A stretch of DNA of 64,000 nucleotides from Pontibacter arcticus (lineage in GTDB: Bacteria; Bacteroidota; Bacteroidia; Cytophagales; Hymenobacteraceae): contig NZ_QMDV01000001.1 in the NCBI RefSeq assembly GCF_003284895.1, forward strand, positions 337,080 through 401,079, read 5' to 3'. The translations under genes and the position numbers were made by a program. The notes under the pieces are model-generated. The model was not told the origin of the DNA and made no database searches. It saw only the letters and a list, made by a program, of their open reading frames with translations. This document shows positions 1-64,000 of the stretch, in pieces (position 1 is the first letter of the stretch; every line of letters starts with the position of its first letter).

Positions 1-1
1 G

Positions 2-1021
2 GAGGCAAACGGGCAAACCGAAACGTATCCGAAAACGGTGAGCCGCATGGACGAGTTCAGCACCACAAAGAAGTACACCAAATTCGGCGACGAAAGTATA
101 AAAGTCTGGAACGAGAAAATCCCGGAAGTTGAACAGGTGGAGATCACCTCTACTTACGATGGCAAAAAAGAGCCTGCGCTTATTTACACTTCTAACACAC
201 CCAAAAAGAAGCCTTTACTTGTTATTTTACACAGCTGGAGCAGCGGGTATCTGCAGCAGGCCAGTATTCCGTATGCTTTGTGGGCCAAAAAGTATGACTG
301 GGTTTTTCTGCAGCCAAACTATCGCGGCAAGTTCGATCATCCGGAGTCTACTGGTTCCGAAATGGCGATACAGGATATTGTGGATGCTGTAAATTTTGCC
401 AAGGGAAATGCTGAAATAGATCCGTCACGCATTTACGTGGTTGGTTCGTCGGGAGGGGCTATGTCGGCTTTGCTGGTGGCGGCGCGGCACCCGAACATTT
501 GGGCGGGCGTGGTGGCCTGGGTACCAATTTATGACTTAGCTGACTGGTATACTTTCAATAAACAATACCCGCACCGTAACTACAACAACCAATTGCTTTC
601 GTCTATCTGCGGCGAACCCTTGCCGGGCACCAAAGCAGGCCGGGAAGCTATCCGCCGCAGCCCAAGCACCTATATGCATTTAGCTAAAGATGTACCGATA
701 TTTATAGCACAAGGCAACATCGATCCGTTGGTATCGCCGGCCCACGCGGTACGTGCCTACAACGCCCTGGCCGATACGGCAGACCAGATTTCCGGAGAGC
801 AGATCATGCACCTGCTTGTGGAAAAAACAACTCCACCCGATTTGGTAACCGATAACCCGGACAGCACTTTTTTTGGCCCGAAAGACCCGAAGGTGATCTT
901 TATGAAAGAATCCGGGAACGTACGGCTGGTGATGTTCGAAGGCGTACACGATATGGCCTATAACCCTACCTTGCTCTGGCTAAACCAGCAACGCAAAAAA
1001 CTACAGGAAAATACGCAGTAA
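2..1021 (+). CDS. Prolyl-oligopeptidase-type alpha/beta hydrolase (S9 family), 5' end cut by window edge
   Basis: The frame is open to the left edge, so the true start lies outside the window. A GTG at 38 is only the first possible internal start. Counting from it, the catalytic Ser lies in GSSGG (136-140), a likely Asp in GNIDP (229) and the His in GVHD (304), in the order expected of an alpha/beta hydrolase triad. The hydrophobic strand ending in LVILHSWSSG fits the oxyanion region. S9 enzymes of this type cleave peptides or esters. The substrate cannot be read from the sequence, and a dienelactone-hydrolase-like or esterase role is possible. A hairpin terminator follows at 1047. Confidence 0.85.
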   Translation, partial: EANGQTETYPKTVSRMDEFSTTKKYTKFGDESIKVWNEKIPEVEQVEITSTYDGKKEPALIYTSNTPKKKPLLVILHSWSSGYLQQASIPYALWAKKYDWVFLQPNYRGKFDHPESTGSEMAIQDIVDAVNFAKGNAEIDPSRIYVVGSSGGAMSALLVAARHPNIWAGVVAWVPIYDLADWYTFNKQYPHRNYNNQLLSSICGEPLPGTKAGREAIRRSPSTYMHLAKDVPIFIAQGNIDPLVSPAHAVRAYNALADTADQISGEQIMHLLVEKTTPPDLVTDNPDSTFFGPKDPKVIFMKESGNVRLVMFEGVHDMAYNPTLLWLNQQRKKLQENTQ

Positions 1022-1046
1022 GTATAAATGCAGTAAAACAGCATAA

Positions 1047-1088
1047 ACATAAATGCCCGGGGAACGCGAATTCTTCGGGCATTTATGT
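1047..1088 (+). terminator. Hairpin terminator after the hydrolase gene
   Basis: Perfect 13-bp arms (1047-1059 and 1076-1088) with a GC-rich core (GCCCG/CGGGC) are followed by a T run. It begins 25 bases after the stop codon. The 1089-1319 stretch beyond it is AT-rich with no other structure that I can support. Confidence 0.7.
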
Positions 1089-1319
1089 TTTCGGTAATAT
1101 AGAGCAGCCTTTTAATTAACAATTTCATCTCATACAAAAGCCTGGTAAATTGCAAATTTTCAAGAGATTTGTTAAAACAGTTACCATACTAATACATATT
1201 CGAAACGCGTTATACTTCAAATTGCTAATGTATTGCTCAACACAAATGAGGTTTTTACAGCCTGCTACTAAAAATTCTAAGCAGCCTGTTCTCCTACCCG
1301 ACTCCGCTTTATCCAAACT

Positions 1320-1511
1320 ATGAAAACGATCATCTTCTTTATTTTATTGGTGATTTTGCTTTTTACAGCAGAAGCCATTTTATCTCTGGAAACCACCATA
1401 CACCCAGAACAAGACAATGACAACCTGATACACGAGTTTATCGTGCTGGTGCTTTGCATGGGAGGCCTTCTTGTAACTGGCAAAAGTATATTCCGGAAGT
1501 ATTCCCGGTAA
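1320..1511 (+). CDS. Possible small two-helix membrane protein (63 aa)
   Basis: The ATG frame encodes a hydrophobic N-terminal helix (about residues 3-22) and a second one (about 42-53), joined by a short polar loop and ending in basic residues. I do not recognise a family. Support is limited to the membrane-protein-like pattern and its position between a terminator and a convergent gene. No ribosome binding site or clear promoter is visible, and an opposite-strand frame overlaps it. It could be spurious. Confidence 0.35.
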   Translation: MKTIIFFILLVILLFTAEAILSLETTIHPEQDNDNLIHEFIVLVLCMGGLLVTGKSIFRKYSR

Positions 1512-1524
1512 AGGGTTTTATACT

Positions 1525-2463
1525 TTACAGCGCTAGGTAAGGCTCCAGTTTTGTGTACAATTCTGATGAGATCAGCTTTATGTTCCTGATTTCGGCCACC
1601 TGCTGATACGGGCCGTGCTGTTCGCGGTAAGCTACAATGGCGCGCGCCACATTAGACGAGATGTAAGGGTGCAGCCTGAGTTCTTCGGCTGTAGCTTTGT
1701 TCAGATCAATCTGAGTTACAGCATTTGCTTTTGGTACGAACGTATACTTTTGCAGGCTATCTACCACCTCCGGGCTAAGGCCGAAAACTTCCTGCACCTG
1801 TGCCATACTCCTGAAACCTCCTAAGCTATTGCGGTACTTAATAATGCGTGCCGAAAGTTTGCTACCGATGCCTCTTATCTGTTTTAGCTGTGTTGTATCG
1901 GCTGTATTAATGTTGAAAGGGGCCAGTACAAATCGTTCTTTTGGTTTGGATTCCCAGTTGGGTGTCGGCCTGGTGCGGGCATCATACTGGTTCCGGTTAT
2001 ACTTGCCGGGTCGCTCAACGGGTAGTTCTATATAAGGGTATAAGCGCTGAAAAACAGAATCGGGAAGGCCGTAGATCTTGCCCAGCTCTGCTTTATAGGT
2101 AAGGTCTCCTACTTTTTTGCGGTAGTTTAAGATACGTTGCGCCAGATATTTGGGCAACCCGAATGCCTGCCATTCTTCTGCACTCAGCTTATTGGGGTTA
2201 AATAGCCGCAGCGGTACAGTTGCCACGGCGTATCTGCTTTTGTAATCAGGTTTTTGTTTGGCTTCCAGCAAGGCAACCAGGCTATCCAGTTTTTGCTGGT
2301 CACTGGCACTTTTGGTGAAGCCGTTATCCGGTTTATAAAACAGGTTAAAAAGAAATGGTGCTGCCGTAAGCAGCACCATTAAGATGATCAGAAACAGAAA
2401 GGCGTTTACTTCGCGCTGCGAAAAGGCAAAATAACGTCTGATCCATTTCCTGAATTTATTCAT
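1525..2463 (-). CDS. Helix-hairpin-helix protein with three ComEA-like repeats, membrane anchored
   Basis: The protein is 312 aa. A short basic N-terminus precedes one transmembrane helix (about 22-42). Three helix-hairpin-helix modules of the ComEA type follow: about 95-155, 185-245 (containing NINTADTTQLKQIRGIGSKL) and 250-310 (containing DLNKATAEELRLHP). Known ComEA proteins bind DNA at the cell surface during uptake. Membrane anchoring fits DNA binding in the periplasm, but no other competence gene lies nearby, so a role in uptake is inference. The third module has HPYISSN where the GIG hairpin is usual. That may weaken its DNA contact. Confidence 0.8.
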   Translation of the reverse strand: MNKFRKWIRRYFAFSQREVNAFLFLIILMVLLTAAPFLFNLFYKPDNGFTKSASDQQKLDSLVALLEAKQKPDYKSRYAVATVPLRLFNPNKLSAEEWQAFGLPKYLAQRILNYRKKVGDLTYKAELGKIYGLPDSVFQRLYPYIELPVERPGKYNRNQYDARTRPTPNWESKPKERFVLAPFNINTADTTQLKQIRGIGSKLSARIIKYRNSLGGFRSMAQVQEVFGLSPEVVDSLQKYTFVPKANAVTQIDLNKATAEELRLHPYISSNVARAIVAYREQHGPYQQVAEIRNIKLISSELYTKLEPYLAL

Positions 2464-2469
2464 ACTTGC

Positions 2470-2631
2470 CTAGTGAGCTACATTCTGACGGGTTAGGTCA
2501 TCATCGTTACCGAGGAAAGAATCCGGCTCAGGCTTAGGAGGCGTATTTAATACTCTGTAAAAAAAGTATAACATTAAGCCCGTTACCAGACTAAGCGTTG
2601 TAAGCATTACAACAAGTGCAGATGTATTCAT
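2470..2631 (-). CDS. MetS-like small membrane partner of the NSS transporter (53 aa)
   Basis: An ATG frame on the minus strand encodes 53 residues beginning MNTSALVVMLTTLSLVTGL. It has a single transmembrane helix (about 5-25) and a polar, acidic, proline-containing tail. It starts 6 bases after the stop of the upstream sodium-dependent transporter gene, so the two are almost certainly cotranscribed and probably translationally coupled. In Corynebacterium, NSS transporters of the MetP type need a small single-helix subunit, MetS, encoded next to them. The size, topology and position here match that arrangement. The functional link is inference, as no sequence search was possible. Confidence 0.7.
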   Translation of the reverse strand: MNTSALVVMLTTLSLVTGLMLYFFYRVLNTPPKPEPDSFLGNDDDLTRQNVAH

Positions 2632-2637
2632 AGCTTT

Positions 2638-4299: not shown

Positions 4300-4508
4300 A
4301 AATAGAAGTAAAAGTGTTTAGTTTAGGTTGTAATTAAGGTGTCGTGAAATAGAATTAAAGGTACAATTTAGCCAATGGTTTTGATTAACCGAGTTAAAAT
4401 TCAATATTTTTAATATCAGTTAATAAATGGATAAGAAAGTTGGCGAGGTGTTAGGGCCGTTTTTAAATCGATTAAAACCCTGAATTTATACTTTCATAAA
4501 AACCAAAA

Positions 4509-4543
4509 GCCTGAGCGGGTATGAATGTATACTTTGCTCAGGC
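4509..4543 (-). terminator. Terminator for the RmlD-like gene
   Basis: Arms GCCTGAGC and GCTCAGGC (4509-4516, 4536-4543) form the hairpin. On the minus strand a T-rich tail follows. The loop holds a TATACTT word. It lies 18 bases beyond the stop of the minus-strand reductase gene. Confidence 0.65.
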
Positions 4544-4560
4544 TGAAGATGTAGGGGAAG

Positions 4561-5466: not shown

Positions 5467-5471
5467 ACTTT

Positions 5472-6119
5472 CTATCGTGTCTGTGGCTGCTGGTTATAGT
5501 CGTATTTATACTTTTTGGCGATCTTCTTTTTCTTGACCTCCTCTACTTTTACCTTCATGGTGATGTTGGAAAGCGGGCGGTCGCGGCCATCTTTTGGTTG
5601 TTCTGCAATTTTATCTACCACATCCAGCCCATCCACTACCTGCCCGAAAACGGTATAAGCTTCATCGAGCATGGGGGTGCCGTCATGGTTCTCCACAATG
5701 TAAAACTGCGAACCGCTGGAGGCACGTGTCGGGTTCGCAAAATCACCCTGACGAGCGGCAGCCACAGCACCGCGCACGTGTTTGTGATACGGTTTTATTT
5801 CGGCCGGAACGGTATAACCCGGGTTTCCGGAACCATCGTTACGCGGGTCTTCGTCTTTGCTGTTAATGTCGCCGCCCTGTATCATAAAGCCATCTATCAC
5901 GCGGTGAAACGTGGTGCCATCATAAAAGCCATCTTTCGCCAGTTTCAGAAAATTGTCTTTGTGCAGCGGGGTGTCGTCAAATAAAATCAGCTTTATCTCG
6001 CCCTGCGGCGTTTCGATTGTGACAAGTTTATCTTTTCCTTTCAGTTTCTGAGCGGAGGCAGCGATTGGCAAAAGTATGATGGCAACGAGCGCCAGCATTG
6101 TTCTGATAAGTGGTTTCAT
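5472..6119 (-). CDS. Exported cyclophilin-type peptidyl-prolyl isomerase
   Basis: The frame is open further upstream, but that extension is encoded by a repeat element. I therefore choose the ATG at 6119, which gives 215 aa with a clean signal peptide (about 1-24, ending IAASAQ). The cyclophilin core includes FHRVIDGFMIQGGD with the catalytic Arg, and SSGSQFYIVE. Cyclophilins speed proline isomerisation. This one should act in the periplasm. The C-terminus is very lysine-rich. It lies 5 bases upstream of the RmlD-like gene. Confidence 0.9.
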   Translation of the reverse strand: MKPLIRTMLALVAIILLPIAASAQKLKGKDKLVTIETPQGEIKLILFDDTPLHKDNFLKLAKDGFYDGTTFHRVIDGFMIQGGDINSKDEDPRNDGSGNPGYTVPAEIKPYHKHVRGAVAAARQGDFANPTRASSGSQFYIVENHDGTPMLDEAYTVFGQVVDGLDVVDKIAEQPKDGRDRPLSNITMKVKVEEVKKKKIAKKYKYDYNQQPQTR

Positions 6120-13661: not shown

Positions 13662-13803
13662 ACAGCTTTCGCAGCTTCTATTCTTTTCTTACTGCTAATG
13701 CCTCTCTTCTGAAACCGGCATTAGGGTAAGCATCCGCACAACTTATACTTTGTGCACCTTCAACTTTTTATCTTATTTATTATACTTTATCTATCTATCA
13801 ACA

Positions 13804-16761
13804 ATGCGGAATAAAACCTTTATTATTGTTCTGACAGTGATCGTATCGGTGCTTTGCCTGTACTACCTGTCGTTTTCGCTTATCTCGCGCAACGTGCAAA
13901 AGGACGCCGAAGCCTACGCGACGGATGCACAAGGCAATGTAGACATGGCCAGAAAGCAGACTTACCTGGATTCTATCTGGAAAGAGCCTGTGTTCATGAA
14001 CTATACCTATCAGGAAATTAAAGACAACGAGCTTGGCCTGGGCCTTGACCTGAAAGGTGGTATGCACGTGGTACTGGAAGTTTCTCCGATCGAGATCATC
14101 AAATCACTTTCCAACAACAGCAAAGACCCTAACTTCCTGAAAGCGCTGGACCGCGCCAAAGAACTTCAGAAAAACAGCAACCAGAGCTTCACTACCCTTT
14201 TTGGCGAGGCTTACCGCGAAGTAGAACCAAACGGCCGCCTGAGCAGAATCTTCTCTACATCAGCTAACCGTGGCAAGATCAGCTTCGATTCTTCTAACGA
14301 CGAAGTAATTAATGTGATCGACAAAGAAGTGGAAGATGCGATCGATCGCTCTTTTAACATCCTGCGTACCCGTATCGATAAATTTGGTGTAAACCAGCCA
14401 AACATCCAGCGCCTGAAAGGCAGTGGCCGTATCCAGATCGAGTTACCAGGTATTGACAACCCGGACCGTGTGCGTAACCTGTTACAAGGTATGGCTAACC
14501 TGGAGTTCTGGGAAGTATGGTCGCCGCAAGAGTATAGCCCATACTTTGCACAACTGAACGATTACTTAACAAAACAGCAGAGAGCCGGCAAAACAACTGC
14601 TGCTGCACCAAAAGCTGATGATGCGTTAGCCGCAGCCGCTGCTACAGATACTACCGCAGATGTACTGGCACAAGCTGCCGGCGACTCTACTGCCATTGCC
14701 AAAAATACGCCAGCTGCCAACGAAGCTTCTACGCTTGATTCGCTTGCTGACGCACAAGGTGGCGCTTTAGCTAATCTGTTCACACAGATGCCAGGTGGCT
14801 TAGGTGCCAACGTGCGCGATACTGCCCGAATCAACGAAATTTTCGCAAGACCGGAAGTACGCGCAATCTTCCCTCCTAACATGAAGTTCTTATGGGGTGT
14901 TAAGCCGGTTGAAGGTGATAACCGCCAGGCTTTTGTAGAGTTTTATGCCATCAAAAAAGGACGCGACGGCAAAGCACCAATGGGTGGCGACGGTATTAAC
15001 GATGCCCGCCAGGATTTCGACCAGACAGGCCGTCCGGAAATTACCATGACCATGAACCCGACCGGCTCTAAGCGCTGGGCGCGTTTAACAGGCGAGAACG
15101 TAGGCCGCCAGGTTGCAATCGTGCTTGATAACTATGTATACTCTGCGCCGGTAGTGCAGGGCGAGATTACAGGTGGTAACTCTTCTATTTCTGGTAACTT
15201 CACCATCGAGGAAGCGCAGGATTTAGCAAACATCCTGAAAGCTGGTAAGATGCCGGCTCCAACCCGTATCGTGGAAGAAGCAGTTGTTGGTCCGTCATTG
15301 GGTCAGGAAGCTATCAACCAGGGCTTACTTTCTACTATCGCCGGTTTAATTGTAGTGGTTGTGTTTATGATCGCTTACTACCAGCGTGGTGGTTTTATTG
15401 CTGACTTAGCCCTTGTGTTCAACGTTTTCTTTATACTTGGTATCCTGGCACAGTTTAATGCTGCGCTAACATTGCCTGGTATTGCCGGTATCGTGCTCAC
15501 GCTGGGTATGGCCGTAGATGCGAACGTACTTATTTTTGAGCGTATGCGCGAAGAGATGACCAAAGGGCTCGGTATCCGCAACGCAATTGATAAAGGATAT
15601 GAAAAAGCATTCTCTACTATTTTGGATGCGAACGTTACTACCTTCCTGGTAGGTTTTATACTTTACTTCTTCGGCTCTGGTCCGGTAAAAGGCTTTGCCA
15701 TTACGCTGATGTTAGGTATCGCTACTTCATTCTTCACATCAGTATTTATCTCCAGAATTCTTGTTGAGAATACATTCAGAAAAAGAGGAACGCTTAACTT
15801 CTCGTCTTCATTTGCAGACAAGCTTTTTAAGAACATTAAGTTTGATGCCATGAAGTTAAGCAGGCCTGCTTATATCCTATCGATTGGAGTTATTGCCTTT
15901 GGCTTTATTGCCATGTACATTAACGGTGGCCCTAACCTGGGTGTAGACTTTAAAGGTGGCCGTTCTTATGTGGTTAACTTCGATCAGGCTGTACCAGCTT
16001 CTGATGTGCGTACGGCGCTTTTAGATGAGTTTGGTGAAGCCGGCACAGAAGTTAAAACGTATGGCGCCTCTAACCGCCTGAAAATAACAACCAGCTTCCT
16101 GGCTGATAACGAAGATGTGCAAGCAGACAAGCAGGTAGAAACAGCCCTTCTGAAAGGTTTGGAGCAATACAGCAACCAGAACCCTGAAATCCTGAGCTCT
16201 GCTAAAGTTGGTGCTACGATGGCCGATGATATTCAGCGTACTTCGCTTATCTCTATGTTGCTTTCGCTGGTTGGTATCTTCCTTTATGTTATACTTCGTT
16301 TTGGTAAGTGGCAGTTCAGTTTGGGTGGTGTTGTAGCCTTGCTGCACGATGCACTCATGATCATTGCTGTATTCTCTATCCTTGATCTGTTCGGAATTTC
16401 TTATGAAATGGACCAGGTGTTTATTGCGGCCATCCTGACGATCATCGGTTTCTCTATTAACGATACGGTGGTAATCTTCGACCGTATCCGCGAAAACCTG
16501 AACGAGAACCCACGTGCTGCAGTAAAAGATATCATCAGCCCTGCCCTGATCTCTACGTTCAGCCGTACCATCATCACGTCTACTACCCTGTTATTCGTGG
16601 TGCTTGTGCTGTTCTTCTTCGGTGGCGAGGTGCTGCGTGGTTTCTCACTGGCCATGATCATCGGTATTATAGCAGGTACTTATTCTTCCCTGTTCATTGC
16701 AGCACCGCTTATCGTGGACACTACAAAAACATTGAAGCCGAATGCAGCTGTTACAGCTTAA
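13804..16761 (+). CDS. secDF: Fused protein translocase subunit SecDF
   Basis: The protein is 985 aa from the ATG at 13804. The frame is open to a TTG at 13750, but the ATG gives the expected N-terminal helix (RNKTFIIVLTVIVSVLCL). The SecD half has GLDLKGGMHVVLEV and the conserved TM motif AVDANVLIFERMREE. The SecF half has GVDFKGGRSYVV and SINDTVVIFDRIREN. An Ala/Thr/Asp-rich segment around residues 260-330 is a variable insertion in the P1 periplasmic domain. SecDF uses the proton motive force to help preprotein release on the periplasmic side. A terminator follows at 16785. Confidence 0.97.
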   Translation: MRNKTFIIVLTVIVSVLCLYYLSFSLISRNVQKDAEAYATDAQGNVDMARKQTYLDSIWKEPVFMNYTYQEIKDNELGLGLDLKGGMHVVLEVSPIEIIKSLSNNSKDPNFLKALDRAKELQKNSNQSFTTLFGEAYREVEPNGRLSRIFSTSANRGKISFDSSNDEVINVIDKEVEDAIDRSFNILRTRIDKFGVNQPNIQRLKGSGRIQIELPGIDNPDRVRNLLQGMANLEFWEVWSPQEYSPYFAQLNDYLTKQQRAGKTTAAAPKADDALAAAAATDTTADVLAQAAGDSTAIAKNTPAANEASTLDSLADAQGGALANLFTQMPGGLGANVRDTARINEIFARPEVRAIFPPNMKFLWGVKPVEGDNRQAFVEFYAIKKGRDGKAPMGGDGINDARQDFDQTGRPEITMTMNPTGSKRWARLTGENVGRQVAIVLDNYVYSAPVVQGEITGGNSSISGNFTIEEAQDLANILKAGKMPAPTRIVEEAVVGPSLGQEAINQGLLSTIAGLIVVVVFMIAYYQRGGFIADLALVFNVFFILGILAQFNAALTLPGIAGIVLTLGMAVDANVLIFERMREEMTKGLGIRNAIDKGYEKAFSTILDANVTTFLVGFILYFFGSGPVKGFAITLMLGIATSFFTSVFISRILVENTFRKRGTLNFSSSFADKLFKNIKFDAMKLSRPAYILSIGVIAFGFIAMYINGGPNLGVDFKGGRSYVVNFDQAVPASDVRTALLDEFGEAGTEVKTYGASNRLKITTSFLADNEDVQADKQVETALLKGLEQYSNQNPEILSSAKVGATMADDIQRTSLISMLLSLVGIFLYVILRFGKWQFSLGGVVALLHDALMIIAVFSILDLFGISYEMDQVFIAAILTIIGFSINDTVVIFDRIRENLNENPRAAVKDIISPALISTFSRTIITSTTLLFVVLVLFFFGGEVLRGFSLAMIIGIIAGTYSSLFIAAPLIVDTTKTLKPNAAVTA

Positions 16762-16888: not shown

Positions 16889-16932
16889 AAAACAAAACAG
16901 CCAGCCTATAAATAGGCTGGCTGTTTTGTTTT
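16889..16932. terminator. Long bidirectional hairpin between secDF and nfu
   Basis: Perfect 20-bp arms (16889-16908, 16913-16932) have core CAGCCAGCCTA and end in A/T runs on both sides, so it can act on either strand. It most likely terminates the minus-strand Nfu gene. TATACTT words at 16932 and 16941 follow it. Confidence 0.8.
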
Positions 16933-16945
16933 ATACTTTATATAC

Positions 16946-17563
16946 TTATACGGTTACGCCATCGGCAACAACTTCTGTTACTTCCGGTACCATACGCTTC
17001 AATAAGTTCTCGATGCCGGCTTTAAGCGTTACCGTAGCAGATGGGCAGCCGCTGCACGAGCCTTGCAAGTGTACCGTTACAACACCTTTATCATACGACT
17101 TAAACGATATGTTACCGCCATCCTGCTCTACCGCCGGGCGAACATAGTTGTTAAGCAGATCGATAATTTTCTTTGAGATCGCTTCGTCTTCTTCAGAAGC
17201 TACGCTGCCATCGGCGTTTGTAGTCTGAGGCCCTGCTTTAGCACTGAAACCTTCGTTAAAAACCGGTCCGCCTGCTTCTGTGTAAGATTTCAGGAACGTA
17301 CGCAGTTCGGGGATCAGTTTTACCCACTCTATATCCGAGTTTTTGGTTACGGTTACAAAGTTGCTGGCAATAAATACACGCGATACATAATCAAAGTTGA
17401 AAAGCTCCTGCGCCAACGGCGATTCCATAGCGCTTTCAAGGTTTGGATAATCAACGCTCTGGCCTTCCGGCAACAAAACAGCGTTCATTACAAATTTCAT
17501 CGATTCAGGGTTCGGGCTGGCTTCCGCGTAAACAGACACCATTTTTTCTTTATTATCTATCAT
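16946..17563 (-). CDS. Nfu-type iron-sulfur scaffold/carrier protein
   Basis: The protein is 205 aa. The N-terminal Nfu_N domain (about 15-98; ASPNPESMKFVMN) is followed by a linker and the NifU C-terminal domain (about 128-203), with the cluster-binding CxxC at Cys170 and Cys173 (GSCSGCPSA). Such proteins carry 4Fe-4S clusters to apo-enzymes in the cytoplasm. No suf or isc genes are adjacent. A -7 box lies at 17611-17618 on the same strand. Confidence 0.93.
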   Translation of the reverse strand: MIDNKEKMVSVYAEASPNPESMKFVMNAVLLPEGQSVDYPNLESAMESPLAQELFNFDYVSRVFIASNFVTVTKNSDIEWVKLIPELRTFLKSYTEAGGPVFNEGFSAKAGPQTTNADGSVASEEDEAISKKIIDLLNNYVRPAVEQDGGNISFKSYDKGVVTVHLQGSCSGCPSATVTLKAGIENLLKRMVPEVTEVVADGVTV

Positions 17564-17766: not shown

Positions 17767-19155
17767 ATGCTAACTAATTTTATTTTACTGGCACAGGCTC
17801 AACATGAAGTTGCTGTTTACCTGATCATACCTTTCCTGCTGCTGATAGGCATGATCGCCAGTGGCCCTGTGTTGTTCGGCCATTTCTGGGAGCACAATTA
17901 TAAGAAAGTTGCCGTAACGCTTGGCCTTACCGTGCTTGCCTATTACTTGTTCGTATTGCAGGACCAGCACATGCCGATTCATACTTTTTTTGAATATGCT
18001 TCCTTCGCTATACTTTTAAGTTCGCTATACATTGCAGCCGGCGGCATCTACATCAATATAAATGCCAGCGCTACACCTGCCATGAATGTGGCTTTAATGG
18101 CATTAGGCGCCGTGATGGCCAATATCATAGGCACGACCGGTGCTTCGCTGCTGCTGATCAGGCCTTTTATCCGGCTTAACATTCACCGTATCAAATCTTA
18201 CCAGATCGTATTTTTTATCTTTATAGTAAGTAATGCCGGCGGCTTGCTGACACCACTCGGTGATCCTCCGCTTTTTATTGGCTTTCTGAAAGGCGTACCG
18301 TTTTTCTGGACATTGCAGCATTTGTTTGTCCCTTGGTTATTGGCCATTGCTGCCCTATGCCTGATCTTTTTTGTAGTGGATAGCCGCAATAAACTATCGA
18401 ACTATGCACCACGCCCCGAAGTTATTGCGGCCAACGAAGCCAAAACAGAATTTTATATCAGTGGCAAGCGCAATCTGCTTTGGCTTGCCATTATTATTGG
18501 TGCCATTTTCCTGGACCCGAATGTGATCGATGGCCTGCCGCATATCTATTATGATGGCAATAAGTTCTCTTTTTTACGTGAGATCATTCAGCTAACAGCA
18601 GCTTTCCTGTGCTACCGCAATTCAGATAAAACAGCGCTTGCCGGTAACCATTTTACGTTCGGCCCTATTCTGGAAGTGGTGTTCCTGTTTTTTGGTATCT
18701 TCTTTACGATGATGCCGGCACTGCAACTATCAGCCAAAATCGCTTCGTCTCCTGAATATTCGCAGTATATCACGCCTAACTTTTTGTATTGGGCTACAGG
18801 CTCGCTTTCAGGCTTTTTAGATAACGCACCAACCTATGCCAACTTCTTGTCTTTAGCAATGGCAAAGTATGATATGGCACAGAACAATGTGATGGAAGTA
18901 CGGCAGTTTGCCACTGGCACTGGTCTTGAACCGGGTACGATCATATTGCTGGAAGCCATCTCGCTGGCATCTGTTCTTTTCGGAGCGTTTACTTACATTG
19001 GTAACGGCCCTAACTTTATGGTGAAAGCCATTGCAGAAAGCGCTGGCATTAAGATGCCTTCTTTCTTTGCTTATGTATTTAAATACTCTATCCCGTTCCT
19101 GTTGCCTGTTCTTATCCTGATCTGGTACCTGGTAGTAGAGCTGAAGTTGTTTTAA
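17767..19155 (+). CDS. Sodium:proton antiporter-like membrane carrier (ion transporter superfamily)
   Basis: The protein is 462 aa with about 11-12 hydrophobic helices. NIIGTTGASLLLIRP and NAGGLLTPLGDPPLFIGF are the paired re-entrant-type motifs typical of the ArsB/NhaD/CitMHS superfamily. SGFLDNAPTYANFLSLA and YIGNGPNFMVKAIAE form the matching second-half elements. Bacteroidota homologues are usually labelled sodium:proton antiporter. The ion specificity here is inference. It has its own promoter and a strong terminator. Confidence 0.85.
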   Translation: MLTNFILLAQAQHEVAVYLIIPFLLLIGMIASGPVLFGHFWEHNYKKVAVTLGLTVLAYYLFVLQDQHMPIHTFFEYASFAILLSSLYIAAGGIYININASATPAMNVALMALGAVMANIIGTTGASLLLIRPFIRLNIHRIKSYQIVFFIFIVSNAGGLLTPLGDPPLFIGFLKGVPFFWTLQHLFVPWLLAIAALCLIFFVVDSRNKLSNYAPRPEVIAANEAKTEFYISGKRNLLWLAIIIGAIFLDPNVIDGLPHIYYDGNKFSFLREIIQLTAAFLCYRNSDKTALAGNHFTFGPILEVVFLFFGIFFTMMPALQLSAKIASSPEYSQYITPNFLYWATGSLSGFLDNAPTYANFLSLAMAKYDMAQNNVMEVRQFATGTGLEPGTIILLEAISLASVLFGAFTYIGNGPNFMVKAIAESAGIKMPSFFAYVFKYSIPFLLPVLILIWYLVVELKLF

Positions 19156-19172
19156 TAAAAGTATACGTATAG

Positions 19173-19204
19173 AAAAGCCGCTCCTGCTTACAGGGGCGGC
19201 TTTT
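19173..19204 (+). terminator. Terminator after the antiporter gene
   Basis: Arms AAAAGCCGC and GCGGCTTTT with an extended inner pairing are followed by a run of T. An AAGTATA word lies just before it. Confidence 0.8.
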
Positions 19205-19252
19205 TTTATTTAAACCGATTTCTGTTTATATTGAATAATACAAAGCTCCGCG

Positions 19253-19570
19253 ATGCAATTACTCAGGTTACATTTTATGTTCTACAGAAGCCTCCTAAGC
19301 TTTATGCTTCCATTTACACTGTTGGTAAGTATACTAAGCCTGGCCTTTGCAGAGCATAGGATTATTGGTTTTATAAATGCTTTCAGTATCAGTCTGCTTA
19401 CCGGTAGTTTTATACTTGCTTTATACTTTTACGAACAGCGTTACCAAAATCAATATTACTTTTATCATAACCAGGGCATCAGTAAGATGGGGCTTATAGT
19501 TGGTGCTTATCTTTTTAATGTAGCACTTGTGTTTGTGTTATTCATCCTCAAACTATACCTGTATGCCTGA
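19253..19570 (+). CDS. Small membrane protein paired with an ABC ATPase (105 aa)
   Basis: The protein is 105 aa with three predicted helices (about 12-34, 38-59 and 82-104) and a polar loop rich in Tyr and Gln (YEQRYQNQYYFYHNQG). Its final 8 bases overlap the start of the ABC ATPase gene, so the two are translationally coupled and likely form a complex. I do not recognise a family. With only three helices it is much smaller than a normal permease. It may be the whole membrane part of a minimal exporter, or an accessory to permeases encoded elsewhere. Confidence 0.75.
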   Translation: MQLLRLHFMFYRSLLSFMLPFTLLVSILSLAFAEHRIIGFINAFSISLLTGSFILALYFYEQRYQNQYYFYHNQGISKMGLIVGAYLFNVALVFVLFILKLYLYA

Positions 19571-20240
19571 AAACGAACTGCAGGCTGACAGCATTTTATA
19601 CCGTATTAAAGAACGGCAGCTGCTTACGGATATTTACATTAGCTGCAAAACAGGGGAAATTGTAGGCTTATTGGGCCGGAACGGCTGTGGCAAATCGACA
19701 TTGCTCAAAATCATTTTCGGAACATTACTCACAGATAACAAGCACATCCGAATAAACGGACAGGTATATCCAGCACCTTATAAACAGAAGAACCTGCTGG
19801 CGTATCTCCCCCAACAAGATTTCCTGCCTGCAACTATCAGGTTAAACAAAATTGTAGATCTATACTTTTATGAACCTGAAAAAAAGGAGGCGGTAAAACA
19901 AAACGAACGGGTACAAAAGCTCTTAAATAATTATCCAAACCAATTATCTAAAGGTGAGTTACGCTATTTTGAGTTACTCCTGTTACTGCAGCTGGATGTA
20001 AAATTCCTGTTATTGGATGAGCCTTTCTCTGGTGTAGAGCCGCTGTATGCCGAACGGATCGAAGAACTTTTAAATTCGCACCTCGGCACCAAAGGCTTTA
20101 TTATTACAGACCATGATTACCGTTCTGTATGGCGTGTTAGCAACAGAATTATACTTTTAGCCAACGGCGCTTGCAGGCCAGTTACTCATGAGCAAGAACT
20201 GGCGGAATGGGGTTATATCCCGGCAAACGACTTCAGTTAA
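19563..20240 (+). CDS. ABC transporter ATP-binding protein
   Basis: The protein is 225 aa from the ATG at 19563. The upstream in-frame region belongs to the neighbour's coding sequence. Walker A is GLLGRNGCGKSTLL, the Q-loop is YLPQQDF, and the signature is LSKGELRYFE (a variant of LSGGQ). Walker B is KFLLLDEPF and the H-loop His is in IITDHDYRSV. All catalytic elements are present, so it should hydrolyse ATP. It is coupled to the 105-aa membrane protein. The substrate is unknown. The YRSVWRVSNRIILLANG ending resembles LptB/LivF-like ATPases. Confidence 0.88.
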   Translation: MPENELQADSILYRIKERQLLTDIYISCKTGEIVGLLGRNGCGKSTLLKIIFGTLLTDNKHIRINGQVYPAPYKQKNLLAYLPQQDFLPATIRLNKIVDLYFYEPEKKEAVKQNERVQKLLNNYPNQLSKGELRYFELLLLLQLDVKFLLLDEPFSGVEPLYAERIEELLNSHLGTKGFIITDHDYRSVWRVSNRIILLANGACRPVTHEQELAEWGYIPANDFS

Positions 20241-20250
20241 AATTCCGCAT

Positions 20251-21330
20251 TTATACTTTACTCGCCTGCTGTCGCATTACGAAATCTGCCAGTACTAAAG
20301 CGGCCATGGCATCTACAATAGGCACGGCACGCGGCAGCACACAGGGGTCGTGGCGGCCTTTGCCAACCAGCATAATTTCTTCGCCGGCATCGTTAATGGT
20401 TTGCTGGGGCTGCAGAATGGTAGCTACAGATTTAAACGCGACATTAAAGTAAATATCCTGCCCGTTGCTGATGCCACCCTGTATGCCGCCGGAGTTATTG
20501 GTACGTGTTTTTATAGCGCCGTTTTCATCGGTAAAAAACTGATCGTTGTGCTCGGAACCGCGCATTTTTACGCCTTCAAAACCGCTGCCATATTCAAAGC
20601 CTTTCACGGCATTTATACTTAGCATCGCCTTGCCCAGTTCGGCGTGCAGCTTATCAAATACAGGTTCGCCTAAGCCGGCCGGCGTGCCGGTTATCACGCA
20701 GCTCACTACACCGCCTACCGTATCCAGGTTATCGCGCACTTCTTCGATCAGGCTGATCATACGGGCAGCTGTTTCGCTATCGGGGCAGCGCACGATGTTG
20801 CTGTCAATCTGATTCAGGTCGAGTTGGGTGTACGGTTTTTCCAGCTTTATACTTCCCACCTGCGCTACATACGACTTTATGCTGATGCCATACTTCTGCA
20901 ACAACTTTGCAGCTAAAACACCCGCCGCTACCCGGGCAACGGTTTCGCGGGCAGAACTGCGGCCTCCTCCCCTGTAGTCGCGCAGGCCATACTTGGCGGT
21001 ATAAGTATAATCGGCATGCGATGGCCGAAAAGCGTGCTCGATGTGGCTGTAATCGTGGCTTGCCTGGTCTTTATTATTTACAACAAGCGTAATAGGCGTG
21101 CCCAGCGTCTTTCCTTCAAAAATACCTGAAAGTATGGTGGCTTTATCTTCCTCTTTGCGCGGCGTAGTTATACTTGACTGGCCGGGCCTGCGACGATCCA
21201 GGGCGTGCTGTATTTCTTCCAGGCTGATGTCGAGGCCAGCCGGGCAACCATCTATAATAACACCAACTGCCGCCCCATGCGATTCGCCGAAGGTTGTGAT
21301 CCGGAAAAGTTTTCCGTAGGAATTGCTCAT
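20251..21330 (-). CDS. aroC: Chorismate synthase
   Basis: The protein is 359 aa. The signatures [39 protein letters not shown] and [18 protein letters not shown] are all intact. It converts 5-enolpyruvylshikimate-3-phosphate to chorismate with reduced FMN. The start overlaps the end of the BatD-like gene by 4 bases, an odd coupling of metabolism with a membrane protein. The TAA stop is part of an AAGTATAA word (20251-20258). Confidence 0.97.
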
Positions 21331-22802
21331 ACTTTATTTTTTTTCAGAAACACAAACGTACCTACCGCCAGCAACACTACCAACACGATGTTGGCATATC
21401 TTCTGATTTCGTTTGCCTGGTTAAGGCTTTGCAGTTTAGTGTCTTCGTTTTCGATGATGTTATAGAAATCTCCCAGGTCCCTGGAAAGCACCAGCGCGTC
21501 AGTATCCTGCAGGCCTGTTACCTGCACCTGCACCGTCGGCCGAAGTGTATCGTAGGCTGCCGTTTCCGGGTTAAAATAAATTAGTCCGAGGGCATCCGCC
21601 AGTTTAAAGGTACCCGGCTCGCGTGGCATAATGTTGTAAGCAAACGTTTTGGCACCTACTACTTGCCCGTTGCGCCGGGTAATATCCTGTCGCACATCCG
21701 GCGGGTAAAAGTCCAGCTCAATCGGGTTTGCTGGCACAGGTGGCATCAGGGCATCAAAATTACCTTCGCCTGTTACGGTAAACTGGTAATTAAAGCTTTT
21801 GCCAACCGGCACTTTGCGGGCAGATAATTTTTGCTGGATACTATACACGCCCACCGGCACTACGTCGCGCAATGGGTGCGGCGGCAACTGTTTTACGCCT
21901 ACCACTTTTTCCCTCGAATAAAAGGTCTTAAAGCCTTCCTGCCGGTCTTCTTCCAGCAGATTCGGGTTTTTGGCCACTTTATACTTAATCATCCGCAGTT
22001 CTAAGGCCGGAAACCTAACAGGCTCCAGGTTAAGGGGGTATAATACGGCTTCGTAAAACTTAAACCGCAGGTAGGGTTCGCCTTTCACCAACACGTTTTC
22101 TGGCGTTATTTCCGTAAAATCAAAGGCTTCTTCCCAGGAATTAGGCTGCTTCAGTTGCCGGACGATGCCGGTTAATTGATTTGCAAAATCATGAAAATCG
22201 AGGAGTTGCTGGTCTTTTTCGGCCAGGTAAAAGTATAGCACCACATTTACACCTTCGCCTACAAATACCTCTTTTTTATTTGTATATATCGTCAGGAACG
22301 CATTGTCTTCTTTCGAGATAAATTCCGGTTCCTGTTCCACCACCGGGTCAGTGGTTTCGTTCAGCGCGTTCAGGTCGGGTAGATTTATACTTTGCGGGCC
22401 ATTGGCAGGCGCAGGTACAATTTTTATACTTGCGCCGGGGCTTTGCACAGTTTGCCCGTTCACTTTCATGGTAAAGGGCCGAAGTGTAAAATCTCCTTCA
22501 TCGAGGGCTGCGTAATTCTGCGTGATGGTCAGGATGGTAGTGGTTTCGCCGGCGGTGGTAATGGTTTTGGTAGTGCTGTAGCGGCTGCTTTTCTTAAAAC
22601 CTTCTATCTCCGGAAACGGCGTATAGTCTTTTAAAGGCTGGTTCTGCAGCCTGATTGAGACGGTATAATACTGGTTAATGGGCAACGGGCTTTTGCCAAG
22701 TTCGATGCTGATCTGCTGCCCTTGCGCAGGTAGCACAAGCACTTGTACAAGTATAAACAGCAAAGTAAAAAAACGCATAAACGGGCTCCGGATTTGGTGC
22801 AA
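21327..22802 (-). CDS. BatD-like exported membrane protein
   Basis: The protein is 491 aa, or 483 if the second ATG at 22778 is used. The second start gives the cleaner signal peptide ([21 protein letters not shown]). The body is beta-rich, with repeats of Ig-like character ([27 protein letters not shown]) as in BatD proteins. One C-terminal helix follows ([18 protein letters not shown]). BatD usually sits in an operon with moxR and batA-C/E, linked to aerotolerance in Bacteroides. Here it is alone, and a MoxR gene lies 22 kb away. Confidence 0.8.
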
Positions 22803-23124
22803 CCTTCAACTAAGGTATAAAAAACTATTTTCGCAATTTTTCAGGCTGATTTATACTTCACATTTTCAGCAGCAGCAAGTATACCTGTCCGCTTTTATAC
22901 TTTAGTGATCCCATTTATACTTCAAAAAACGCTTCCCAGCTTACTCTGTTTGGCTCATTTTTTCTTCTCAGACTGGCAGCAGTCAAATAAATTTAAAACT
23001 GCCTAAATCCGGTCTTTTAGCTGCAGCGTAGGTCAGCTACATTGCCAGTTATACAACAGCGGATTTTAAGCCCGATTCAGAACTGGTAAACGATACTATC
23101 CATCAACACTAAACTTTTACGATT
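22803..23124. other. Intergenic region with a cluster of TATACTT words
   Basis: Four AAGTATA/TATACTT words fall within 72 bases (22851, 22877, 22895 and 22915), in both orientations. The remainder, up to the ferritin-like gene, holds its presumed promoter, but no clear TAnnTTTG box. I see no gene. Confidence 0.6.
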
Positions 23125-55885: not shown

Positions 55886-55890
55886 TTTTA

Positions 55891-58096: not shown

Positions 58097-58115
58097 TTCA
58101 ACCCATATTCATAAC

Positions 58116-58145: not shown

Positions 58146-58229
58146 GTTTAATAGCTTTACTGATACTTAATCCAAGTATGGATTCTTAGCTGTTGTTTCA
58201 AATAGAGTTGAATCCAGTACTAAAAACAA

Positions 58230-58566: not shown

Positions 58567-60384
58567 TTATACTTGCTCTTCGATGGCAATGCCCATTAAT
58601 TGCATCAGTTTGCTTGCATTAAAGCTTCGACAAATGCCAGGCGTTAACTTATAATCAAAGTTGATCTCGTTGCCGGTAATGGTGCTGTTGAAGCTGTAAT
58701 TTTTCACGCTGTCGGGTAGCTCCTCCTCCATCGCGCCCAGTTCAAGGTCGTGGGTGGAGATGAGGCCCGAAGTATGGCGCTGGTGTAATTGCCGGATCAG
58801 GGTCATGGCACCTAAGTGGCGGTCGCGGGAGTTGGTGCCTTTCAATATTTCATCGAGCAGATAAAAGACCGGTTGCCCCAGTTCTGTTAGCTCCAATAGC
58901 ATACGCAGTCGCTTCAGTTCGGCATAGAAAGACGATGTATTCTCGGCGAGGTTATCTACAGTGCGCATGGCCGTATATACCTGTGCAGGTGCTACTTTCA
59001 GACGTGTGGCACAGGCAGGCGCGCCTGTAAAAGCCAGTACCATGTTTATGCCAATGGTACGCAGGAAAGTAGTTTTCCCTGACATATTAGAACCTGTTAC
59101 TACCATCGTTTTACCGGCACCTTGCATCTCAAAATCATTGGCTACCGCAGAAACCGAGAAAATAAGCGGATGCGCCAGCTGCTGCGCCCGAAACTCGAAA
59201 GGCTGCTCGCTTAACTCCGGAATGGCATACTGCGGATGGGCATGCTGAAAGGCGGCTATACTTGCCAAAGCTTCAAACTCGGCTAGCACCACAAGCGCAC
59301 TTTCGACCTGCTCCAGGTGCTTTGCTTTCCAGGTTTCGAGGCGATAGATCCAGTAGAAATCCCACATCAGAATCGAGTTCAGGAAAAAAGCCATCAACGT
59401 ACTCAATCGCCACGAAAAGAAATCGATGATATTAGCCAGTTTGTTGATGGCAACGGAAGCTTTTATACGTTGGTGTTGGTGCAAATCTGCCTGCAGCTGC
59501 TGTAATCTTGGGGAAGTAAAAGTATGGTGTTCGATCTGTTTCAGCTGCAACGTATAACTACGCATCGCTTCGTAAATGCTGATGCTGTTTTCGTAATACT
59601 CATCGCGCTGGACAGCAAACCGGTAAGCAAGTATAAACTGAACCAAAATAAAAGCTGTCGGGATGTACCCGCTAAACCCGTACGCCCACAGTATAATAGC
59701 ACCTATCGTTAGTACCGGAAGTATAAATAACAGCACTTTCAGCCAGCCATATTTCGGGTAAAACGAGTGGTTCCGGAACCAGTTTATAAACGTGTCTGCG
59801 GGCTTCAGGGTGTGTTTGTAATGCCTGGGCAGAGCCAGAAAATACTGCAGCCAATCCAGTTTGCTTTCGGTTGCCAGCTCTGCTACGGCTTCCTGGCGCT
59901 GTTTTATTTCTATTGCGGGGGCAGCCTGTTGCAACCAGCCGGCCAGTTTATACTTTCCTATACTTGTAACTGACCTGTTCACTAACTGGAAAAGCGAGTT
60001 CTGTCCGAAAATATCAAGATCCGAAGTATAAGCATGCTGGGCATTAATAAAGTCATCGCCACCATCGAAAGCTGTTAGTTTGCCTTGCAGGCGGGCGTTC
60101 TCTTCTTCGTTTAATTTCCGGGTTAGTTGCAGTTGCTTATACTTAAAATCGAGGCGTGCATGCCAGCGCAGCACAACGGTAAACAAAATATAAAATCCAA
60201 GTATAGAAAGTATACCGTACGCATTTTGCCCGGAATTAAAGAAATGATAGGCTACTGCAACACCCGCCATAAACACGCCCAGGCGCAGCCACGATACTGT
60301 ACTCGATTTGCCCGATGCTTTTTTCTCCTGTTGCCCGAACTGCAGGGCCCGGTCTGTAAATAATTGTTTTCTGCTTTCGCTCAC
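58567..60384 (-). CDS. MutS-family ATPase (membrane-segment type)
   Basis: The protein is 605 aa. The C-terminal MutS ATPase domain has Walker A TGSNMSGKTTFLRTIG, Walker B VFYLLDEILKGTNSRDR and SGLISTHDLELG. The N-terminal part contains hydrophobic helices (about 30-70 and 215-250), so it may be membrane-bound. True MutS and MutS2 lack such helices. It has no mismatch-binding domain, so mismatch repair is unlikely. The TAA stop is part of an AAGTATAA word (58567-58574). Confidence 0.85.
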   Translation of the reverse strand: MSESRKQLFTDRALQFGQQEKKASGKSSTVSWLRLGVFMAGVAVAYHFFNSGQNAYGILSILGFYILFTVVLRWHARLDFKYKQLQLTRKLNEEENARLQGKLTAFDGGDDFINAQHAYTSDLDIFGQNSLFQLVNRSVTSIGKYKLAGWLQQAAPAIEIKQRQEAVAELATESKLDWLQYFLALPRHYKHTLKPADTFINWFRNHSFYPKYGWLKVLLFILPVLTIGAIILWAYGFSGYIPTAFILVQFILAYRFAVQRDEYYENSISIYEAMRSYTLQLKQIEHHTFTSPRLQQLQADLHQHQRIKASVAINKLANIIDFFSWRLSTLMAFFLNSILMWDFYWIYRLETWKAKHLEQVESALVVLAEFEALASIAAFQHAHPQYAIPELSEQPFEFRAQQLAHPLIFSVSAVANDFEMQGAGKTMVVTGSNMSGKTTFLRTIGINMVLAFTGAPACATRLKVAPAQVYTAMRTVDNLAENTSSFYAELKRLRMLLELTELGQPVFYLLDEILKGTNSRDRHLGAMTLIRQLHQRHTSGLISTHDLELGAMEEELPDSVKNYSFNSTITGNEINFDYKLTPGICRSFNASKLMQLMGIAIEEQV

Positions 60385-62741: not shown

Positions 62742-62765
62742 GGTATTCGTTCTCGGTTTATACTT

Positions 62766-63323
62766 TTAAGCTACTAACTGTGGCTCCCGCATAATATCTA
62801 TTAACTTTTTCCGGGCCCTGCTGTACTGCGATTTAGACGTTGACTCCGATATTTTGAGAATCTCCCCTATTTCTGCATGGTCGTATCCTTCCAGCAAGTA
62901 TAAAGTCAGCACAATCCGGTAGCCTTCCGGCAGTTTCTGGATGGCGGCACGCACTTTTTCTACCTGCCACTCCATATCATCTTCATCTACCTGGTCCGGT
63001 ATTTCGCCGGCTTCCCGCTCATCCAGCGCAACAACTTCTTCGCGGCGCTTGCGGATGGCGTTGATCGAGGCATTTACAACAATCCGTTTCAGCCAGCTGC
63101 CAAAAGATGCTTCGCCTTTGTAGCTATGCATGTTTTTAAAAGCGCTGATAAAGGCTTCCTGCAGCACATCTTCGGCTTCGGCATAATCGTTGGTGATGCG
63201 CATGCACACGTTAAACATAGCTTTGGAGTATAGCTTATACAGCTCGTACTGTGCACGATTTTCGCCATTCCTGCACCGCTCGATCACGTGCTGGTTAACG
63301 TCCTGATAGCTGATTTTCTCCAA
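62766..63323 (-). CDS. ECF-type RNA polymerase sigma factor
   Basis: The protein is 185 aa. Region 2 (about 18-90; DYAEAEDVLQEAFISAFKNM) and region 4 (about 125-178; LPEGYRIVLTLYLLEGYDHAEIGEIL) are typical of sigma-70 ECF proteins. The anti-sigma candidate follows. It probably autoregulates, but I see no consensus promoter for it. The TAA stop directly precedes an AAGTATAA word. Confidence 0.93.
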   Translation of the reverse strand: MEKISYQDVNQHVIERCRNGENRAQYELYKLYSKAMFNVCMRITNDYAEAEDVLQEAFISAFKNMHSYKGEASFGSWLKRIVVNASINAIRKRREEVVALDEREAGEIPDQVDEDDMEWQVEKVRAAIQKLPEGYRIVLTLYLLEGYDHAEIGEILKISESTSKSQYSRARKKLIDIMREPQLVA

Positions 63324-63581
63324 TGTGTTTGTGTTTGCGTAATTCTAAAACTAAACCTCCGATCTCTGCCTTCTGCTCATCTTCCTCTCTTTTTCAACTT
63401 CTGCATTAAAGACACGCGCAATTGCATTTGGTTGCACCTAATTGCAAAAATTCTTTTTCTTTTCAACTATACTTTCATTCCATCGACCAAACCAGCCAGC
63501 ATATCTGCCAGTTTTTATTTTATTGTTGTGATCCGACCTACTCCAAATCAGAAATTTCATTTCAGAAATCATACTTCATAA
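63324..63581. other. Intergenic region upstream of the sigma factor gene
   Basis: No gene is supported. Short repeats of AATTGCA/TGCAATT type occur around 63418-63446. It should hold the sigma operon promoter. Confidence 0.4.
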
Positions 63582-63613
63582 AAAAAGCCGGTCCTCTACA
63601 GAACCGGCTTTTT
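63582..63613. terminator. Terminator for the aldehyde dehydrogenase gene
   Basis: Arms AAAAAGCCGGT and ACCGGCTTTTT enclose a short loop. Two abutting TTATACTT words follow at 63612-63627. Confidence 0.8.
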
Positions 63614-63627
63614 ATACTTTTATACTT
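63612..63627. repeat. Tandem pair of TTATACTT words
   Basis: TTATACTT occurs twice back to back (63612-63619, 63620-63627), between the dehydrogenase stop and its terminator. Confidence 0.9.
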
Positions 63628-63642
63628 TAAAAAAACGGATAA

Positions 63643-64000
63643 TTAGTCCATTATTTTAAAGGTGATACCTTGTGCCAATGGCAGCTCACGGCCATAGTTG
63701 ATCGTGTTTGTCTGGCGGCGCATGTAAATTCTCCAGGCATCAGATCCCGACTCACGGCCACCGCCGGTATCTTTCTCACCACCAAATGCACCGCCTATTT
63801 CAGCACCGGATGTACCAATGTTCACGTTGGCAATTCCGCAATCCGATCCCCAATGCGTCAGGAAAGCCTCTGTCTCCAATAAATTGGTAGAGAAAATAGA
63901 AGACGAAAGGCCTTGCTTCACACCATTCTGTAGCTCGATGGCGTTTTCTACATCGCCGCTATACTTCAGCAAGTATAAAATCGGTGCAAATGTTTCTTCC
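63643..64000 (-). CDS. Aldehyde dehydrogenase, ALDH7-like, 5' part outside the window
   Basis: Only the C-terminal 118 residues or so are visible, and the frame runs past the right edge. [20 protein letters not shown] and [20 protein letters not shown] are diagnostic of the ALDH7 group (alpha-aminoadipic semialdehyde dehydrogenase). These oxidise an aldehyde of lysine breakdown with NAD. The catalytic Cys lies upstream, beyond the window. Confidence 0.9.

Follow-up and report, generated by a model that had tools for sequence, protein, structure and literature searches.

What makes a single short word recur throughout a bacterial genome, inside genes as well as between them? The question is raised by a stretch of 64,000 nucleotides from Pontibacter arcticus (contig NZ_QMDV01000001.1, positions 337,080 to 401,079; this whole stretch is referred to as the window), in which the seven-base word AAGTATA, or its complement TATACTT, appears again and again. 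A preliminary description of the window remarked on this excess and offered as options a DNA-uptake word, a site for a binding protein or for chromosome organisation, or a remnant of mobile elements. Comparison of 50 Pontibacter genomes, that of the window included, shows that the word is abundant, that it is spelt in dialects, that each dialect protects its own word, that words turn over by point substitutions and that they are biased towards the chromosome. The explanation favoured here, with a probability of roughly one half, is that the word serves for self-recognition much as a DNA uptake signal does, and that preferential exchange of own-kind DNA, through a putative evolving receptor, has spread it.

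Abundance of AAGTATA in Pontibacter arcticus

Within the window AAGTATA is found 154 times (69 on the + strand, 85 on the - strand), in genic and intergenic DNA, and with Markov backgrounds of order 1, 2, 3 and 4 alike it heads the ranking of 7,810 strand-merged 7-mers; 100 dinucleotide shuffles of the window contain a mean of 9.46 copies (standard deviation 3.00, maximum 16). The over-representation in both orientations that had been described is thus real, and the earlier count of 20 copies between 19001 and 23000 was exact. In the whole genome (3,771,860 bases, completeness 99.94) the excess is larger than that description had seen, with 8,844 copies (4,403 forward and 4,441 reverse) as against 429 (209 + 220) of the same word read backwards.

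The word is not palindromic, and the string that is favoured is approximately AAAGTAT(A>G)(A>>C,G>>T)A, with information that stops one base 5' and two bases 3' of AAGTATA. The variant AAGTATG is likewise raised, with 62 copies in the window and a 5.3-fold excess over word-less relatives. An origin as mobile-element remnants is rejected because the consensus ends beside the word, without conserved flanks, and species differ in the word by point substitutions, indels being few. An initial hint of helically phased A tracts around the word vanished once sites near another word were excluded. The longest stretch of the window without the word is 55144-58405 (3.3 kb).

Dialects of the word across the genus

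Whole-genome word counts, with a threshold of 0.8 words per kb, were used to sort 49 of the genomes into dialects, the fiftieth (G079) standing outside this table and carrying AAGTATA at its locus L014. AAGTATA (AAG) is the word of 18 genomes, AGGTATA (AGG) of 12 and AACTATA (AAC) of 4, a further 4 have both AAG and AAC, and 11 have none of these; the core common to the dialects is TATA. Among the species P. mucosus is AAG, P. roseus AGG and P. populi AAC, and P. pamirensis belongs to the 'none' group. The number of AAGTATA copies within the genus ranges from 770 to 11,818, and in 30 genomes from other families of the same order it lies at about 0.4 to 1.8 times controls. In 23-kb loci around secDF many species with few copies of AAGTATA have AGGTATA or AACTATA in abundance. 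The genomes with both words vary in the balance between them, with AAG:AAC counts of 10,614:3,531 (G043), 9,116:6,094 (G032), 7,552:8,118 (G027) and 5,110:11,674 (G046), and the four AAC genomes (G018, G030, G037, G044) stand at about 2,000:13,000. The AAC dialect is partly palindromic, having a palindrome-like form AACTATAGTT and 28 overlapping convergent pairs among 315 sites, and several of the 11 genomes in the 'none' group retain a two- to four-fold remnant of AAGTATA.

It is apparent that the dialects track phylogeny. On a tree of secDF alone (44 rows, 41 on the Pontibacter side and 3 outgroup, drawn from 43 of 73 loci plus the window, the remaining 30 loci being distant or short) the AGG species are one clade (support 99), the sister of which, P. 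ruber, is still AAG, and the AAC species together with those that have both words are another (support 99). The five dialect labels need 8 changes on this tree and shuffled labels a mean of 23.5, with AAG most simply taken as the ancestral dialect. Within the 'none' group TATATA is perhaps a fourth dialect in G042, with 99 sites as against about 23 expected in a total of 60 kb, made up of three 20-kb stretches of which one has no TATATA; the forms TATATATA, TATATAAA and CTATATAG were seen in L129 and L171 and are absent from L170. Another member of the group, G036 (L037, L206, L207), has a weak and broad word, GGTATA preceded by A or G (49 strand hits of AGGTATA and 46 of GGGTATA in 63 kb), which would be either a decaying AGG dialect or the product of a looser reader.

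The excess of AAGTATA is not explained by protein sequence or codon usage. With proteins held fixed and codons drawn at the genomes' own usage, coding DNA in 34 stretches from 15 AAG-dialect genomes holds 832 words where 106.1 are expected (coding classes being taken from simple open reading frame (ORF) calls of at least 100 or 120 amino acids), so base and codon composition, which the earlier description had named as an explanation that would refute its claim, do not account for the word. Of the contexts in which synonymous codons could produce the word without altering the protein, 30% contain it overall, and 68% do so in one phase. The ratio of found to expected words for the cognate dialect is 7.8 for AAG, 11.8 for AAC and 10.9 for AGG, with 8.4 and 7.4 at two double-word loci, whilst non-cognate dialect words lie between 1.1 and 3.1. 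Cognate words in the three pure groups reach 3.8 to 7.4 per kb in noncoding DNA and 1.3 to 1.8 per kb in coding DNA. In secDF itself isoleucine is encoded by ATA 5 times, by ATT 31 times and by ATC 50 times, and the words at 15432, 15657 and 16290, which are in the ATA-reading phase, contain three of the five ATA codons; therefore the earlier remark that the word in this gene uses ATA against codon preference was correct.

Turnover, placement and neighbouring genera

Words are conserved beyond neutral expectation, as under a fixation bias. In comparisons of P. flavimaris with P. chinhatensis or P. mucosus (about 85% aligned identity) 66-71% of aligned words are kept as against 40-44% of words of the same composition, and between P. 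chinhatensis and P. mucosus (93.6% identity) the figures are 81-87% and 69-71%. In a matched control the same six bases are followed either by A, giving the word, or by C/T, giving a non-word. AAG cores are kept in 856 of 1075 cases and their control in 38 of 82 (loss 0.30 of control), AGG cores in 436 of 563 and 10 of 62 (0.14), and AAC cores in 150 of 211 and 8 of 21 (0.35), the p-values of these pairwise counts being optimistic as the counts are unpolarised and some species are reused. Sequences one change short of a core turn into it more often when A follows than when C/T does, by factors of 8, 4 and 9 for AAG, AGG and AAC respectively, in comparisons that are again unpolarised. The protection is dialect-specific, with AAGTATA in the AGG clade kept in 36 of 95 cases, resembling its C form (8/27) and T form (26/58), and in word-less species kept in 12 of 28, with no clear protection. 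Any fixation bias, be it selection or biased exchange, predicts such a reduced loss, and arithmetic from the loss ratios puts its scaled strength at about 2 to 3; pure mutation bias does not match, as mutation bias alone would not lower loss.

Changes hit all positions of the word, and indels are found in 3/185, 1/173, 8/138, 7/196 and 3/127 aligned words. P. fetidus, which has both words, has 24 of 33 aligned AAG words in common with P. vulgaris (AAG), and AAC-only relatives keep 4/33, 5/35 and 5/30, so that AAG words persist in species that are rich in them and disappear from those that are not. Where P. ruber has an AAG word, four AGG species have AGG in its place at 5/19, 9/23, 5/17 and 5/19 aligned sites, compared with 0/41, 1/37 and 0/20 between AAG species. 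In-place change from AAG to AAC is rare (2/33, 3/35, 3/30), thus AAC seems to be an added word.

Words lie in coding and noncoding DNA, on both strands, and are densest between convergent genes. They take no single position relative to genes, which led to the rejection of a promoter or terminator element. Some tandem copies of the word were seen, uncounted, behind terminator-like T tracts.

The word is enriched in core DNA, and it is sparse both on contigs that resemble plasmids and in an island that was acquired. The secondary contigs of four genomes (G000:C6, G021:C2, G001:C2, G020:C2) hold 59 words in 173.8 kb, and the main contigs of the same genomes 846 words in 500 kb. Relative to the number set by base composition the secondary contigs have 0.8 to 3.2 times as many words, and the main contigs 10.4 to 16.3 times as many. 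Those main contigs are plainly chromosomal for G001, G020 and G021 (4.7-5.0 Mb) and assumed to be so for G000 (C4, C5); with G000 excluded the counts are 38 words in 133.8 kb and 692 in 440 kb. In P. chinhatensis the density falls to 0.52 words per kb in an island of 38.5 kb, compared with 2.58 in aligned DNA. The plasmid-like contigs have features of their own. G000:C6 (L154, L156; 139 kb), which belongs to the genome of the window, repeats itself after 74,337 bases with 14,337 of 14,337 bases identical, as if the assembly had run about 1.9 times round a circular plasmid of 74.3 kb. A 14-base tandem unit, TTAATAAGTAAGAA, is common to plasmid-like contigs of three Pontibacter genomes, with 18.6 copies in L160, and its arrays are perhaps replication iterons or a partition site.

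A sister genus carries an element of its own. Its word AAACGCTA occurs 1,777 times in G080 and 659 times in G085, as against 130 and 129 for the backward word, and 76 to 285 times in seven other genomes. The element is about 29 bases long, AAAACGSTATSSTTTTnnnsnnAAAAAST, with T and A tracts about 10-11 bases apart (181 sites, 240 kb). A profile built on one half of the G080 DNA and run on the remainder finds 0.85 sites per kb there and 0.61 in G085; Pontibacter and four further sets have 0 to 0.05 per kb, and resampled sequence has no more than 0.05. The density is 0.45 per kb in coding and 2.65 in noncoding DNA. Its layout of a core plus two AT tracts is like that of the uptake signal sequence (USS) of Pasteurellaceae, as set out in the portion of PMC12616744 used here, and by this argument from layout the element makes uptake likelier for the family. 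Elsewhere a symmetric TTTT-n14/15-AAAA element (GTTTT...AAAAC) was seen in Rufibacter ruber L034, with 26 strand hits where 2.4 are expected, and in genus g35 (L125-L128), with 64 where 12.8 are expected, and more A tracts accompany it at intervals of about 12-13 bases. AGGCAATG was tried as a Rufibacter word and rejected, as every one of 150 genomes of the family has between 172 and 498 copies.

Table 1. Positions of words and other features (window coordinates unless a locus is named)
Feature	Position	Strand	Detail
AAGTATA set	1..64000	both (+ 69, - 85)	154 words
Dense stretch	19001..23000	both (+ 6, - 14)	20 words
secDF	13750..16761	+	NCBIfam NF009585 SecDF equivalog, 1292.8 bits vs cut-off 1037
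secDF words (TATACTT on +)	13781, 15432, 15657, 16290		four copies
Example coding word	15657..15663	-	context GGTTTTATACTTTA
Same-orientation word pair	16932..16947	-	9 bases apart, just 3' of secDF
Same-orientation word pair	59949..59965	-	10 bases apart
Same-orientation word pair	60199..60214	+	9 bases apart
Same-orientation word pair	63613..63627	-	8 bases apart
Divergent word pair	63960..63977	both	TATACTT then AAGTATA
TTAATAAGTAAGAA arrays	L160:6056-6316; L155:6587-6670; L166:15066-15290		
29-base element stretches	G080: L112, L190-L200; G085: L113, L201-L205		

A proposed uptake signal, rival explanations and meaning

If the word is an uptake-like signal, a putative reader, most probably a protein of the outer membrane or another one that serves transfer, would prefer DNA with NNN-TATA in which NNN is specific to the species (AAG, AGG, AAC, perhaps YTA). 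Own-kind DNA that carries the word would replace homologous word-less alleles, with copies accumulating wherever the protein code tolerates them, and decaying after the reader changes or is lost. A drifting reader could give the passage from AAG to AGG, partly in place, whilst a second reader could add AAC to AAG words, after which the AAG reader might be lost. It is from the distribution and turnover of the words that we infer a protein reader, with uptake and homologous replacement as the biased step.

The closest likeness is to the DNA uptake sequence (DUS) of Neisseriaceae, known here from parts of the two papers cited. The DUS is short, non-palindromic and present in thousands of copies on both strands (PMC3630211, PMC2397512), has dialects with a common core (PMC3630211), is enriched in the core genome and absent from recently acquired genes, and has a 2Nes of about 4 (PMC2397512). 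The Pontibacter word is alike in each of these, with common-core dialects along the phylogeny, some two-dialect genomes, scarcity in acquired DNA and a scaled fixation bias of a few units; from this DUS-like set of facts the word would be spread by preferential own-kind exchange with the specificity of the reader drifting. It differs in being 7-9 bases long rather than 10-12, in being denser (up to 3 per kb) with clumped direct copies, and in that no type IV pilus or ComP-like reader accompanies it. The USS of Pasteurellaceae, with a 9-nt core and two AT-rich regions, up to 32 nt in all, is likewise genome-wide on both strands and has two dialects in the account given in PMC12616744, whereas the Pontibacter word has no AT tracts and its genomes have no pilus genes. 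The uptake option of the preliminary description, the best supported of its three, therefore gains from the dialects, the tree, the fixation bias and the scarcity on plasmids and in the island, and loses from the missing type IV pilus.

A number of results weigh against an uptake signal, beginning with the machinery. The type IV pilus/type II secretion ATPase PF00437 gave only matches of 19-26 bits over about 40-66 residues, with 3 of 50 genomes over the cut-off; as these are short and weak a standard type IV pilus cannot be the reader, and as the pilus reader is a defining part that was tested and is missing, the word is not filed as a DUS. ComEC is present in all 50 genomes, 'none' species included, and so was rejected as a discriminator of word genomes, and comEC is seemingly shortened or interrupted in the word genomes G009, G018 and G022 (frames of 314, 561 and 431 amino acids as against about 700). 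Gene clusters of the comEC neighbourhood, compared in 18 of the 50 genomes without naming by hidden Markov models, hold nothing exclusive to word genomes. DUF5689, a domain of the Riemerella protein RA0C_RS04920, is found in 22 of 50 genomes and in three kinds (eight ORFs of 417-450 amino acids, with the one in L132 adjoining a SusD-like gene, four of 413, and ten in frames of about 1100-1300), none of which is in all word genomes, and these proteins were rejected as the reader. The searches of ComEC, its neighbourhood and DUF5689 thus gave no candidate reader gene.

The arrangement and turnover of words lean the same way. Spacing is clumped (coefficients of variation 1.37, 1.39 and 1.18), and close pairs at 8-20 bases are 85 direct, 11 convergent and 9 divergent, which uptake of one site per fragment does not need, and 7 kb of P. 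mucosus classed as unaligned hold 2.43 words per kb. In polarised triplets words have 93 losses and 24 gains, with control words balanced or gain-rich (losses:gains 146:153, 86:122, 26:34), and raw noncoding loss is near control (14/110 vs 54/416; by dialect, AAG 8/56 vs 30/276 and AGG 6/48 vs 18/106); both figures are tilted against the word because the triplet filter requires identical non-words in two species for a gain, and because alignable noncoding DNA is unusually conserved. It is possible that words are now decaying in the sampled lineages. Gains with two or more changes make up 7 of 24, with no excess over control words (86 of 309), these numbers being small; such multi-change gains, the mark of new copies that arise by recombination, are reported for DUS in PMC2397512.

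The same protection and gain would fit any fixation bias, direct selection included, and the word could be the binding site of a chromosomal protein, a nucleoid organiser or one of repair or defence, with copies under weak direct selection. A binder would be in keeping with the palindrome-like AACTATAGTT form of AAC and with the clustering of words in direct orientation within 20 bases. If thousands of sites were needed, loss in several lineages and respelling within the genus would be odd, and secondary contigs in the same cells are without the excess; whilst this part of the binding-protein or chromosome-organisation option survives as a rival, it is an unlikely one. The part of that option that would make the word a Chi, FtsK-orienting polar sequence (KOPS) or other strand-oriented repair or segregation signal fares worse. 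Chi and KOPS are strand-biased and conserved. AAGTATA is also a short, non-palindromic, over-represented word, with 53% of its copies on the leading strand (346 of 648) in 20 evenly spaced pieces (400 kb) of the 4.98-Mb main contig of G021, the strands being set by GC skew, but against 302 lagging copies this is no clear bias (p = 0.09); the word is A+T-rich in composition, several lineages are without it and its dialects switch within a genus, so that a signal of this type is disfavoured and very improbable. Least credible of all is an excess from mutation bias, base composition, codon usage or mobile-element remnants with no fixation bias. Turnover by ordinary point substitutions is what it would give, and noncoding triplet loss near that of the control agrees with it, but the cognate word stands 8- to 12-fold over the protein and codon expectation when other dialect words reach at most 3.1-fold, its loss is 0.14-0.35 of the matched control, and flanks are missing.

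A comparable density, with replacement in some species and loss in others, is known for the highly iterated palindromes (HIPs) of cyanobacteria, the alternate forms of which accompany matching methyltransferases (from the part of PMC4390886 used here). A methyltransferase with a linked repair bias might likewise make and keep the Pontibacter word, its dialects then reflecting the specificity of the enzyme, but HIPs are palindromes tied to methyltransferases and the word is neither, as far as the two families examined go. PF01555 is in 31 of 50 genomes and is missing from, among others, all four AAC genomes, the AGG genomes G003 and G011 and the AAG genomes G039 and G023; PF07669 is in 47 of 50 (46 over the cut-off), including 9 of the 11 'none' genomes, with patchy strong hits. 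Neither tracks the word and both were rejected as its partner, and as secondary contigs in the same cells are without the excess, a HIP1-like origin is improbable. Drive from the donor side, in which a gene-transfer agent, vesicle or similar carrier preferentially packs word DNA, predicts the same dialects, chromosome bias and fixation bias as an uptake signal does, and is held to be distinctly improbable.

Accounts of uptake words with dialects exist for two families of proteobacteria, both of them users of type IV pili (PMC3630211, PMC12616744). For the phylum of Pontibacter the nearest case is Riemerella, which is also without pilus homologues and has ComEC (PMC8459023, PMC7965970). Transformation in Riemerella anatipestifer is pilus-free and needs ComEC, DprA, RecA, ComF and four proteins without homologues in known machinery (PMC8459023), and Riemerella columbina prefers its own DNA, with A-rich strings as the k-mers of Table 3 (PMC7965970). 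There is no convincing word in the portions of these two papers used here, and the Riemerella receptor genes have no recognised counterpart that tracks the Pontibacter word. AAGTATA, AAGTATAA and TTATACTT were not found in the openly licensed literature, where TATACTT appears only in unrelated contexts, nothing links DNA uptake sequence, Bacteroidetes and overrepresented words, and Pontibacter with methylome returns only unrelated matter; the best-ranked matches on Pontibacter and competence, Bacteroidota uptake signals and Hymenobacteraceae motifs hold nothing on AAGTATA.

It is possible, though somewhat doubtful, that Bacteroidota have a pilus-free, sequence-specific DNA uptake or exchange with a fast-evolving receptor, which would comprise at least four dialects in Pontibacter, two readers in some of its species, and in a sister genus a system of like kind that runs on a 29-base signal unrelated to the word. 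So strong a word in a pilus-free group would then be an independent origin of self-DNA recognition, and would provide a handle on an outer-membrane DNA receptor of Bacteroidota, the gene for which would be found in word species, missing or broken in the 'none' lineages, altered where dialects switch and perhaps doubled in species with both AAG and AAC. Even if the process is not uptake, it is one that drives sites in their thousands in each genome and that has changed its target inside a single genus, and molecular drive versus selection thereby becomes testable.

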